Of a DNA stretch of 64,000 nucleotides, positions 26,223-31,377 are shown in pieces. Position 1 is the first letter of the stretch; each line of letters opens with the position of its first letter. The translations under genes and the position numbers were made by a program. This DNA is from an uncultured Crocinitomix sp. (GTDB lineage Bacteria > Bacteroidota > Bacteroidia > Flavobacteriales_D > Crocinitomicaceae): assembly GCA_937136425.1 (NCBI GenBank), contig CAKZON010000045.1, positions 1-64,000 of the forward strand, in the 5' to 3' direction. The notes beneath the pieces are model-generated. The model did no database searches. It was not told where the DNA came from and saw only the letters and a program-made list of their open reading frames with translations.

Positions 26223-26462
26223 CTAACCAAAAAGAGTATCTATAATTTCTGCCATTTTATAGTCCACGGCGGTGACTGAATTGGCTGAATGTGTCCACAA
26301 TTCAAACCGAATTTTGTTATAGTCAAGCACTGCAAAATCTGGATGATGATCTAATTCATCTGCTTTTTTAGCAAGTGCGTTCAATTTTTCTATTATGTCT
26401 GAAAAACTCTTGTCTTCGTATGTCTTGACGAGTCGATTCTCAATTACTTTCCAATCCATCAT
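26223..26462 (-). CDS. phhB: 4a-hydroxytetrahydrobiopterin dehydratase
   Basis: 79 residues, at the short end for pterin-4a-carbinolamine dehydratases. It recycles the pterin cofactor after aromatic amino acid hydroxylation. The family signature is visible: LDHHPDFAVLDYNKIRFELWTHSANSVTAVD, with H39, H40 and H58 as the likely active-site histidines. Its stop lies close to two hairpins and its start is 2 bases after the stop of the alpha/beta-hydrolase gene. phhA, its functional partner, lies four genes upstream on the same strand, so the group is probably functionally linked. Confidence 0.93.
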   Translation of the reverse strand: MMDWKVIENRLVKTYEDKSFSDIIEKLNALAKKADELDHHPDFAVLDYNKIRFELWTHSANSVTAVDYKMAEIIDTLFG

Positions 26463-26464
26463 TC

Positions 26465-27511
26465 TTATTTATAAGTGTCAATAAATGTTACAATGTCTTT
26501 AACAAACAAATCTGGTTCATTGTTCATTGGTGAATGTGCAGAGTGTTCATATATTTTCAAATATTTGTTCGTTGAACTAATTTTGTCAAAAGCCGAGTAA
26601 CCTAATGCCGGTGGCACAACAAAATCATACTTTCCCCATTGTAACAAAGTCGGAATCGTAATTTTATGTAAGTCATCTGTCATTGATTTTGCTTCTACTT
26701 CATCCATAAATGCTTTTGGCAATACTAAACCAGATAATCCTGATGTTGCCGGATTGTTTGGTGTAAAGAAAAGGTAATTCAATAAACCTGGTGAAGCACC
26801 GTTCGATTCATGTAATTGAGACAATAACCCTTCAATTCTATGTCCATACCCATTTAAGGTACCACCTTGATCACTTGTAATATTATTAGTGTCCAATCCA
26901 TTTACAAAATCTATCATCTCTGTCCAGTCTGCTGTATTGTTTCCTGCTGCTAATTCTTCACCTCCAATAGTCTGAATCATTTTAACCAATTCAATATTTA
27001 GCATTGGAATGTCATGTGCTCCATCCACTTCAATCCAACCTGCCAATTCGTTTTGATAATCCTCTTTTATCATATAAGCAGTTCCAAGTGTTCCGCCCCA
27101 ACTATGTCCCATCATGAAAATACTAATATCATTTCCGTAACGTTCTTTCAGTGTTTTTACAGTCAGATGCAAGTCTTCAACCATTGCATCAATCGTAACT
27201 TCAGATTCTGCTAAATGTCCATGGGAATTTCCTTGATGTCTTTGGTCTGTATACACCATTGCATATTTTTCTTCAAGCTGTTCTGAATAAGTTCCGCCGC
27301 GGTATTCTAATCCATTCCCTCCTGGTCCTCCGTGTACAACCAGTATGAATACTTTAGAGGCTCCATTGCCGTATACAAATGCAGGAATATCAGCATCACC
27401 ATTTCTTACATAAAAACTTTCTTCCATTTGTGTGCTCACTGCTGGTTCTTTTTGACAAGCAGTTAATAACACAAAAACAACTCCTAATAAACTTCCAATT
27501 CTTCCTAACAT
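26465..27511 (-). CDS. Alpha/beta-hydrolase lipoprotein (proline iminopeptidase-like)
   Basis: 348 residues. Lipoprotein signal MLGRIGSLLGVVFVLLTAC (lipobox LTAC). The alpha/beta-hydrolase fold has the oxyanion HGGPGGNG motif, DQRHQGNS, the nucleophile elbow GHSWGG (Ser), an Asp in WGKYDFVVPP and the catalytic His in EHSAHSPMNNEP. HGGPGG plus DQRxxGxS is typical of proline iminopeptidase-like S33 enzymes. A paralogue lies at 29338-30387. Probably a periplasmic or surface peptidase/esterase; substrate unknown. Confidence 0.88.
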   Translation of the reverse strand: MLGRIGSLLGVVFVLLTACQKEPAVSTQMEESFYVRNGDADIPAFVYGNGASKVFILVVHGGPGGNGLEYRGGTYSEQLEEKYAMVYTDQRHQGNSHGHLAESEVTIDAMVEDLHLTVKTLKERYGNDISIFMMGHSWGGTLGTAYMIKEDYQNELAGWIEVDGAHDIPMLNIELVKMIQTIGGEELAAGNNTADWTEMIDFVNGLDTNNITSDQGGTLNGYGHRIEGLLSQLHESNGASPGLLNYLFFTPNNPATSGLSGLVLPKAFMDEVEAKSMTDDLHKITIPTLLQWGKYDFVVPPALGYSAFDKISSTNKYLKIYEHSAHSPMNNEPDLFVKDIVTFIDTYK

Positions 27512-29337: not shown

Positions 29338-30387
29338 CTAGTTTTTATACATCTCAATAAATTCAATTACATCAGCCGCAAATTGTTCTGGTTCGTAACG
29401 CATAGAAGAGTGTCCAGCATTTTCGTATATTTTCAAAAACTTATCAGGTGTTGAAATTTTTTCCAAAGCAGATTGTCCAAGTTGATAAGGCACTTTAAAA
29501 TCATATCGGCCCCAACATAGCAGTGTTGGAGTGGTTATTTTGTGCAAATCATTCGTAAGTGAGGTGGATACAATTTCTTGATAAAAGCTCTCTGGCAAAA
29601 ATAATTGGTTATTAGTAGTCGTAAATGGATTGTCGGCACCTAAAAAATAGAGTTCTAATTCGCTTAATTCAGATTGACTTTTAGCATTAAGGTTTTTTAT
29701 AAGATTTTCACACTTACCAGCATATTCATTTAGCAAAGTAATTTCCTCAATGCTTATTGCTGAAGTATCTATACCGTTCACAAATTCTAAAACTTCGTTC
29801 CATTGTTTTGTATGATTGTTAGCAGCTATTTCCACAGGAGCTATTTCCTTAAACCTTTTTATGATCTCTTGATTCATTAGAGGGAAATCATGTGCGCCAC
29901 CGCTTTCAATCCAACCATCTATTTCGTTTTGATAATCTTCTTTAATCATAAATGATGTTCCTAATAGTCCGCCCCAACTATGTCCCATTAAAAATAAGCT
30001 AATATCATCACCATAGCGTTCCTTTAAGACCTTAACAAGTGCATAAGTATCTTCCACCATCATGTCAATGGTGATGTCTTCTTTGCTCATGTGACCATGA
30101 GAATTACCTTGATGCCGTTGATCCCAATAGACCATTGCATATTCTTTTTCTAATAAATCAGAATAGGTATGTCCGCGATATTTTAAACCGCCGTCACCTG
30201 GTCCGCCGTGCAATAAAAGAACGAAAACCTTGGATTCACCATTTCCTCGAACAAATACGGGCATGTCTGCGCCATTGTTTTGCAAATAAAAAGTTTCACT
30301 CATGTCGGTGCTTACTTGTGGTGCTTTGTCACATGCAAAAAGTAAAAAACAGCTAACAACCCAAAGTGTAAAGTGGTTCAATTTCAT
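29338..30387 (-). CDS. Alpha/beta-hydrolase lipoprotein, paralogue of the 26465 gene
   Basis: 349 residues. Signal MKLNHFTLWVVSCFLLFAC (lipobox LFAC). Motifs match the paralogue: LHGGPGDGG, DQRHQGNSHGHMS, GHSWGG nucleophile elbow, WGRYDFKVP and ENAGHSSMRYEP for the catalytic Asp and His. The two share layout over the whole length and probably arose by duplication within this cluster. It is the first gene after phhA (48-base gap), so it may be under the phhA attenuator. Substrate unknown. Confidence 0.88.
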   Translation of the reverse strand: MKLNHFTLWVVSCFLLFACDKAPQVSTDMSETFYLQNNGADMPVFVRGNGESKVFVLLLHGGPGDGGLKYRGHTYSDLLEKEYAMVYWDQRHQGNSHGHMSKEDITIDMMVEDTYALVKVLKERYGDDISLFLMGHSWGGLLGTSFMIKEDYQNEIDGWIESGGAHDFPLMNQEIIKRFKEIAPVEIAANNHTKQWNEVLEFVNGIDTSAISIEEITLLNEYAGKCENLIKNLNAKSQSELSELELYFLGADNPFTTTNNQLFLPESFYQEIVSTSLTNDLHKITTPTLLCWGRYDFKVPYQLGQSALEKISTPDKFLKIYENAGHSSMRYEPEQFAADVIEFIEMYKN

Positions 30388-30435: not shown

Positions 30436-31161
30436 TTAGTAAACAATTTTTCGAGCCAATTGAACACTTGCTTGGTGTAACGCTTGATTTAGCTCATCCA
30501 ATGATTGAATCAAGAAATAATCTTCTTGTAAAACATCATTTTGAAAAACTTTTTTGAGAACAACGTCAATGTCAAAAGGCAAGATGTTACAATCTTTTGC
30601 CGCTACACGGTTGGTTTCTCCAAAAGAAGAAATAATACCAGCGCCATAAACTTTTCCACGGCCTTGCTCTTGAATTAAGCCAAATTCAATTGTAAACCAG
30701 TATAAGCGTTGTAATTGATTCAAAACAAGAGTGTCACCTTTAAAAGATTGCCCTAATTGACCAAAACGGTGTGCGAATTCAGAAAAAGTTGGATCTGCCA
30801 AAAGTGGAATATGACCAAAAGTATCATGAAACATATCTGGCTCCTCCAAGTAATCCAATTGCTCCATTGTTCGCAACCAAGTTGATGAACAAAATTGTTT
30901 GTTGGCTAAAAGATCAAAGAAATCTTCAACAGGAATTAGCCCTGGTACAACTACAATTTCCCATTCAGTTGTTGTTTTAAACCAATTATTGATTGCGTCA
31001 AAAGAAGGAACGGCATTGGCGTTTAATACAGGACGCATGGCATCTAAACAGTCTAAGTAAATCTCGCTTCCCTTTGTTTCTAGATTATTACGCTGTCGCT
31101 CAAATAGTGTTTTCCAAACCAAATGATCGGTTGGAGTGTAATTGTTCATGATTTGTTTCAT
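30436..31161 (-). CDS. phhA: Phenylalanine-4-hydroxylase
   Basis: 241 residues from the ATG at 31161 (a second ATG at 31149 is also possible). An iron- and tetrahydropterin-dependent monooxygenase that converts phenylalanine to tyrosine in the cytoplasm. Iron ligands are visible as H112 and H117 in MFHDTFGHIPL and E159 in FTIEFGLI, with YGAGIISSFGE further on. The length fits bacterial single-domain enzymes. A longer in-frame start at 31245 is rejected because the strong terminator at 31194-31228 would lie inside the coding region. Transcription is probably governed by the Tyr-codon leader and terminator described below; phhB downstream supplies cofactor recycling. Confidence 0.95.
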   Translation of the reverse strand: MKQIMNNYTPTDHLVWKTLFERQRNNLETKGSEIYLDCLDAMRPVLNANAVPSFDAINNWFKTTTEWEIVVVPGLIPVEDFFDLLANKQFCSSTWLRTMEQLDYLEEPDMFHDTFGHIPLLADPTFSEFAHRFGQLGQSFKGDTLVLNQLQRLYWFTIEFGLIQEQGRGKVYGAGIISSFGETNRVAAKDCNILPFDIDVVLKKVFQNDVLQEDYFLIQSLDELNQALHQASVQLARKIVY

Positions 31162-31193: not shown

Positions 31194-31228
31194 CAAAAAA
31201 AAACCGATCTCCAAAAGGAAACCGGTTT
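31194..31228 (-). terminator. Attenuator terminator hairpin upstream of phhA
   Basis: On the minus strand the 5' arm AACCGGTTTCC (31227-31217), a TTTT loop and the 3' arm GGAGATCGGTT (31212-31202) form an 11-bp stem with two G-T pairs, directly followed by a run of nine or more T. It lies 33 bases before the phhA ATG and after the leader peptide stop, so it can only act as a regulated terminator of phhA. Confidence 0.85.
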
Positions 31229-31285
31229 ATAAAAGTTATATGCACTTAGGTAGCGTTAATACCCTACCGTGCTTTCTCCGGCTTC
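31218..31285 (-). promoter_or_regulatory. Predicted antiterminator pairing of the phhA leader
   Basis: Leader segment GAAGCCGG (minus strand 31285-31278) can pair with CCGGTTTC (31225-31218), the 5' arm of the terminator, over 8 bp with one G-T. The same leader segment can instead join the small hairpin CTTCT-AAACC-AGAAG (31296-31282). These two foldings exclude each other. Confidence 0.7.
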
Positions 31286-31336
31286 TGGTTTAGAAGTCGA
31301 ATAATAATAATTGCTATTGTTGTGTTTAATAATCAT
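31256..31336 (-). CDS. Leader peptide of phhA with three consecutive Tyr codons
   Basis: A 26-codon ORF from the ATG at 31336 to TAA at 31256, too short for routine gene calling. It begins MIIKHNNSN and has Tyr-Tyr-Tyr at positions 10-12 (TAT TAT TAT), then STSKPEAG and ends with another Tyr before the stop. It starts about 11 bases after a perfect -7 promoter element and is followed by a terminator hairpin ahead of phhA. The arrangement is that of an amino-acid-sensing leader peptide: a ribosome stalled at the Tyr codons would leave the GAAGCCGG antiterminator segment free. It controls the enzyme that makes tyrosine. Expression of the peptide is inferred. Confidence 0.75.
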   Translation of the reverse strand: MIIKHNNSNYYYSTSKPEAGESTVGY

Positions 31337-31346
31337 TGTGATAAAA

Positions 31347-31377
31347 CAAATGTATAATATTTTTTGACATAAAATAA
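31347..31377 (-). promoter_or_regulatory. Promoter of the phhA leader transcript
   Basis: The minus strand has TACATTTG (31354-31347), a perfect TAnnTTTG match. TTA lies 20 bases upstream (31377-31375), one base off the TTG -33 consensus. The transcript would start only a few bases before the leader peptide ATG. Confidence 0.6.

Follow-up and report, generated by a model that had tools for sequence, protein, structure and literature searches.

Enterobacterial pheL, hisL and trpL leaders follow a common plan, in which a short open reading frame (ORF) with cognate codons precedes an intrinsic terminator, the transcript can adopt mutually exclusive 1:2, 2:3 and 3:4 helices, and the product of the controlled gene makes the amino acid that is sensed. 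We examined a leader of this kind upstream of phhA, which encodes phenylalanine 4-hydroxylase, in a 64,000-nt stretch of DNA from an uncultured Crocinitomix sp. (GenBank assembly GCA_937136425.1, contig CAKZON010000045.1, positions 1 to 64,000), hereafter referred to as the window. It shares with pheL, hisL and trpL the cognate-codon run, the terminator, the three exclusive helices and a product that makes the sensed amino acid. Unlike them, it stands before a phenylalanine hydroxylase gene, would sense tyrosine alone, matches no Rfam family, and has an ORF that begins almost at the predicted transcription start. The sequence features described below make it very probable that the leader functions as a ribosome-mediated transcription attenuator, which would sense tRNA-Tyr charging and control phhA, probably together with the gene cluster that extends to phhB. 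In the window bacterium and dozens of its relatives, phhA would probably be switched on only when tyrosine is short; PhhA is mostly the sole visible route to tyrosine in these genomes.

Leader-peptide attenuation was described by Naville and Gautheret in 2010 as known only in Proteobacteria and Actinobacteria (PMC2965389). Within Bacteroidota, leader-like small ORFs have been noted in Bacteroides thetaiotaomicron (PMC7366714), and the accessible part of a report on Flavobacterium psychrophilum describes 'strong clues' for leader-peptide attenuators before amino-acid biosynthesis operons (PMC9723704). These predicted attenuators share phylum and general mechanism with the phhA leader; neither phhA nor tyrosine is named in that part of the report. 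A three-hairpin attenuator precedes ilvBNC of Corynebacterium glutamicum (PMC11857589) and likewise comprises an anti-antiterminator, an antiterminator, a terminator and control codons within a leader ORF, whereas phylum, amino acids and sequence all differ and no homology is claimed. In Pseudomonas aeruginosa, PhhR with sigma-54 regulates the genes for the same two enzymes, phhA and phhB, as part of the phhABC operon (PMC1173090). PhhR, however, activates a Phe/Tyr catabolic operon by binding DNA, while the phhA leader is a putative RNA attenuator for which induction by tyrosine shortage is expected. The first-pass annotation of this locus had known of no described case of phhA attenuation, and we likewise found no description of attenuation of a phenylalanine hydroxylase gene in open-access full text. 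The class of mechanism is established; what appear to be new are the gene, the sensed amino acid, the distribution and the link to loss of prephenate dehydrogenase (TyrA).

Architecture and proposed action of the leader

The leader ORF MIIKHNNSNYYYSTSKPEAGESTVGY lies on the minus strand at 31336-31256 and by direct reading runs from ATG to TAA over 26 codons, of which codons 10-12 (31301-31309) are TAT TAT TAT; homologous Tyr-run leaders precede phhA in approximately 54 of the fetched loci. Upstream on the same strand, at 31347-31354, is the Bacteroidota -7 box TACATTTG (TAnnTTTG). The location of the Bacteroidota promoter box at -12 to -5, as given in the F. psychrophilum report (PMC9723704), was used to predict transcription starts, and places the start here near 31342, approximately 6 nt ahead of the leader ATG. 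A TAnnTTTG box was also found near the leader start in relatives (within 40 nt in 38 of 53 leaders versus 2.2 expected), and the predicted 5' untranslated region of phhA leaders had a median length of 3 nt, with 13 leaders starting exactly at +1. As the predicted transcription start and the first base of the ORF are some 0-7 nt apart, the leader would be near-leaderless. This is an unusual and testable feature, given that only 5.5 % of the mRNAs mapped in F. psychrophilum are leaderless (PMC9723704). A candidate sigma-54 promoter, TGGCATAATCTT (31396-31385), was rejected: it resembles a promoter half and is present in the two closest relatives (loci L002 and L083), but is not kept in remoter relatives, and the TAnnTTTG box is a much better fit.

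Downstream of the ORF, a 12-pair terminator hairpin at 31228-31195 (minus strand) reads AAACCGGTTTCC TTTT GGAGATCGGTTT followed by nine T. It folds with -14.7 kcal/mol, ranks above all other minus-strand terminator-like sites near phhA, and lies 34 nt upstream of the phhA ATG (31161). Its 5' arm, segment 3 (31217-31228), was assigned from the sequence, a terminator scan and covariation, and its 3' arm, segment 4 (31212-31201, with the U-run to 31195), from the same evidence and the fold. Segment 1, TCGACTTCT (31292-31300), follows directly 3' of the last Tyr codon and forms the 5' arm of the anti-antiterminator, as indicated by the hairpin axis and covariation. Folds and the swap test described below support segment 2, AGAAGCCGG (31278-31286), as the partner of either segment 1 or, in the form GAAGCCGG (31285-31278), segment 3. 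The 1:2 hairpin, TCGACTTCT aaacc AGAAGCCGG (31300-31278), has nine pair positions with one mismatch (-5.5 kcal/mol) and buries the whole of segment 2. The antiterminator joins GAAGCCGG to CCGGTTTC (31225-31218) through eight pairs, one of them G-U, and when segment 2 is free, the antiterminator is the structure predicted for 31285-31217 (-23.9 kcal/mol). The coordinates in the first-pass annotation were all confirmed, and the pairing with the terminator 5' arm had already been proposed there; a competing hairpin using the same segment had also been recognized, but its extent was given as 31296-31282 rather than 31300-31278. In the window lineage, the stop codon of the leader ORF lies within a further strong hairpin (31272-31239, minus strand; GCAC-GGTAG...CTACC-GTGC). 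Its pairs are kept with different bases in L002 (GCAT-AGAGC...GCTCT-ATGC), and it was not found in the other lineages compared. It would lie inside the antiterminator loop and may shorten that loop.

From this arrangement we infer that the leader is translated, that transcription can terminate at the 3:4 hairpin and that tyrosine controls the outcome. Transcription would start a few bases upstream of the leader ATG. With ample Tyr-tRNA, the ribosome would pass the three Tyr codons and the 1:2 hairpin would re-form behind it, hiding segment 2, such that the 3:4 terminator forms and transcription ends. With scarce Tyr-tRNA, the ribosome would stall on the Tyr codons and cover segment 1; segment 2 would be released to pair with segment 3, no terminator would form, phhA would be transcribed and tyrosine would be made from phenylalanine. 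The ribosome footprint extends to approximately 12 nt 3' of the codon being translated (PMC4833913), so a ribosome stalled at the third Tyr codon (31303-31301) would reach approximately 31289, blocking segment 1 (31300-31292) and leaving segment 2 (31286-31278) free. The control codons are thus placed where stalling would free segment 2. This stalled-ribosome argument, first made by counting codons in the window sequence, is borne out by the comparison between species, in which segment 2 begins at a nearly constant distance from the last Tyr codon (15-21 nt in most leaders, counted from the first base of that codon).

Stalling could instead act through translation or Rho, by exposing or hiding a translation start or a Rho site. 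Initiation in Bacteroidota is unusual and not reliant on Shine-Dalgarno pairing, as stated in the accessible part of one report (PMC9976891), and leader structure could therefore affect access to the phhA start. We nevertheless consider this very improbable, as the U-tailed hairpin shortly before the phhA ATG is a terminator of textbook form with strong covariation, and the partner of the antiterminator is the 5' arm of that terminator, not the phhA start.

Conservation and covariation across Bacteroidota

The comparison covered 80 phhA loci from named genomes and 40 near relatives, and the closest named relative among the fetched loci was a Crocinitomix metagenome-assembled genome. A short ORF such as MKNLNNTYYYYPILTRRIGQ was found 70-220 nt upstream of phhA in most Flavobacteriales and in several Saprospiraceae and Chitinophagales. 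An automatic test for an ORF of 10-32 codons with at least three Tyr in six residues, followed by a strong U-tailed hairpin, was passed by 46 of 78 phhA upstream regions. None of 252 other genes from these loci and none of 780 dinucleotide shuffles passed it, ruling out a chance origin of leader and terminator; the same test with runs of Phe, Trp or His in place of Tyr also returned 0. Across 53 leaders, Tyr made up 21 % of residues versus 3 % for Phe, with a mean of 3.9 Tyr per 19-residue leader. The Tyr codons alternated freely between TAT (168) and TAC (37), and the use of both indicates selection on the residue, not the bases. Only the Tyr run and its spacing were conserved in the leader peptides, with other residues and length varying freely.

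In 48 aligned leaders, the terminator (3:4) displayed 96.6 % standard pairs and double changes at 10 of 11 aligned pairs (63 cells), with 0 of 500 shuffles as good, though this count, like that for 1:2 below, is inflated by relatedness of the rows. The register of the antiterminator (2:3) shifts by 1-2 bases between lineages, which precludes a fixed-register count on one alignment. We therefore used a swap test, in which the segment 2 of each leader was scored against its own terminator arm and that of every other species; own arms scored 16.7 versus 14.1 for those of others (0 of 20000 permutations, p < 5e-5). In 30 of 51 leaders, the best axis of the 1:2 hairpin was located 10.5-11 nt downstream of the final Tyr codon, versus approximately 12 % expected (approximately 6 % per position), and 1:2 pairing exceeded dealt controls in both main groups (0 of 2000). 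A 13-row alignment yielded 16 double-change cells for 1:2 (0 of 500), and sliding controls for the terminator and 1:2, which keep row relatedness, still favoured the stated register. The conservation check proposed with the first-pass annotation, which looked to relatives for the Tyr run, the terminator, both alternative stems and compensatory changes, thus came out in its favour across many Bacteroidota genera. With three covarying helices, these data document probable leader-peptide attenuation in a phylum for which it had been sparsely described.

A covariance model of the leader returned the window site as its best match in the 6.1 Mb genome (E 4.3e-6); the next match had E 0.026 and later ones were worse, all far weaker than the phhA site. 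No known Rfam family, including the Phe, Trp, His and Leu leaders, T-box and riboswitches, reached its gathering score in the window, and the best lax match (E 0.053) was to an unrelated small RNA.

In relatives, the model also matched similarly organized leaders upstream of hisG (MKMNYTHHHHVNAQRAW), ilvE (MNIIIVIIISASLW) and pheA (MSQSASFFYYYFNYSG). The hisG leader contains four His codons and the ilvE leader Ile/Val codons (L142, G010:C55; L129, G037:C4), while those of pheA combine codons for Phe, Tyr and Trp, with tandem doubling possible. The codons of the pheA leaders indicate that the leader code follows the product, and phhA leaders are dominated by Tyr alone, in line with the product made. 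Two tandem Phe/Tyr/Trp-rich ORFs were seen before the prephenate dehydratase gene pheA in L113 (G030:C11; MSQSASFFYYYFNYSG then MKSNTFYFWYYFYNTHQSE) and L115 (G037:C3), each ORF with its own terminator-like hairpin. There may be a phylum-wide class of leaderless leader-peptide attenuators in Bacteroidota, with ORFs at or a few bases from the transcription start, one branch of which made phhA a Tyr-controlled biosynthetic gene in lineages that lost prephenate dehydrogenase; we see the case for and against this as evenly balanced. In such a class the first ribosome would load without an untranslated region.

Tyrosine supply and the role of PhhA

The window genome (6.1 Mb, 99.9 % complete) encodes chorismate synthase, but searches for TyrA and prephenate dehydratase (PDT) that were positive in 14 of 14 control genomes gave no match in it, leaving phenylalanine hydroxylation as the only visible route to tyrosine. 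PF02153 served as the TyrA marker, whilst PF20463 (C-terminal TyrA domain) was dropped as a poor marker here. Gene content suggests that the regulated gene acts in the supply of the amino acid sensed, PhhA making tyrosine, and the predicted direction of control, with phhA on at low Tyr-tRNA charging, fits a genome without TyrA or PDT. Among 12 near relatives with a short PhhA, only G037 exceeded the TyrA cut-off, with a weak match of 29 bits; this genome also has PDT, carries phhA clustered with DAHP synthase, and holds the one near-relative phhA without a leader. In the wider set, 5 of the 28 genomes with a leader (four Psychroflexus and one Flavobacterium) had a true TyrA, and 11 of 22 leaderless genomes had TyrA, six of these being weak or fused matches. 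An even class-wide sample contained the leader in 20 of 31 phhA genomes without TyrA versus 1 of 16 with TyrA (Fisher p 1.4e-4, common descent ignored). Within family f26, the leader was found in the genus without TyrA and in none of the genera with TyrA. Mixed His and Tyr leader-like ORFs (MNPTPRTYVHHSYHFLQ) were observed approximately 200-300 nt ahead of phhA in G206, G177, G318 and G351 (L178, L184, L191 and L192), all with TyrA, and in some a terminator-like hairpin follows the ORF.

Several points weigh against a tyrosine-controlled attenuator of a biosynthetic gene. In the window lineage, the 3' end of segment 2 lies 22 nt upstream of the end of the stop codon; a terminating ribosome would therefore not mask segment 2 directly, and the 1:2 hairpin must do so. 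A minority of leaders have a weak or displaced version of that hairpin. The statistics associating leader with TyrA absence take no account of shared ancestry, and nearly all relatives carry a divergent hmgA-like gene, making a catabolic role possible. The hmgA-like gene at G000:C70:162557-163657 scores far under the family cut-off, and such genes are found almost throughout the group, with or without phhA.

The hmgA-like gene would favour a catabolic PhhA whose leader senses phenylalanine or general translation speed. This we regard as highly unlikely: the leaders are rich in Tyr and poor in Phe, induction of a catabolic enzyme would be expected in response to excess rather than to a shortage of Tyr-tRNA, the leader is associated with TyrA absence, and the pheA leaders of relatives hold the codons appropriate to their product. 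It is scarcely credible that the product of the Tyr-rich ORF is a small peptide with a function of its own and that the terminator is the ordinary end of that small gene. Conservation of the ORF and the action in trans of some attenuator leader peptides (peTrpL, in the accessible part of PMC7298713) would favour this reading, but conservation is limited to the Tyr run and its spacing, and covariation of the RNA helices spans both ORF and terminator.

Bacterial phenylalanine hydroxylase is mostly portrayed as catabolic, although fitness data have suggested a biosynthetic enzyme in Echinicola vietnamensis (Bacteroidota), Dyella japonica and Legionella (PMC7311316). A Tyr-codon attenuator kept alongside TyrA loss would provide independent regulatory evidence for a biosynthetic PhhA in many uncultured and cultured Bacteroidota, and would aid genome-based prediction of phenylalanine auxotrophy with tyrosine self-supply.

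The phhA gene cluster

The phhA gene (30439-31161, minus strand) encodes a phenylalanine 4-hydroxylase of 241 aa, with matches to PF00351 (2e-42), TIGR01267 (8e-72, scoring just below the curated cut-off) and a solved relative, phenylalanine-4-hydroxylase 1ltu (1.6e-50). The long bacterial aromatic amino acid hydroxylases of relatives (555-655 aa) had no Tyr-run leader in four of four readable upstream regions. On the same strand, phhA is followed by genes for an alpha/beta hydrolase, a TPR protein, a small protein predicted to be secreted or in the outer membrane, a second hydrolase, and finally phhB (26235-26459), a pterin-4a-carbinolamine dehydratase gene (PF01329, 1.5e-17) that ends the cluster. 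The first hydrolase (29338-30387) is a proline iminopeptidase-like lipoprotein by profile matches and is probably co-transcribed with phhA; it and the second (26465-27511) are paralogous lipoproteins, 54 % identical. The terminator scan found no strong minus-strand terminator between phhA and phhB, and the next lies just past phhB (26184-26157). The cluster from phhA to phhB is probably co-transcribed under control of the leader. The earlier suggestion that the nearby hydrolase gene shares this control is plausible given the lack of a strong intervening terminator, but a homologue follows phhA in few close relatives, and among named phhA loci only in L002 and L003. In many relatives, phhB directly adjoins phhA.
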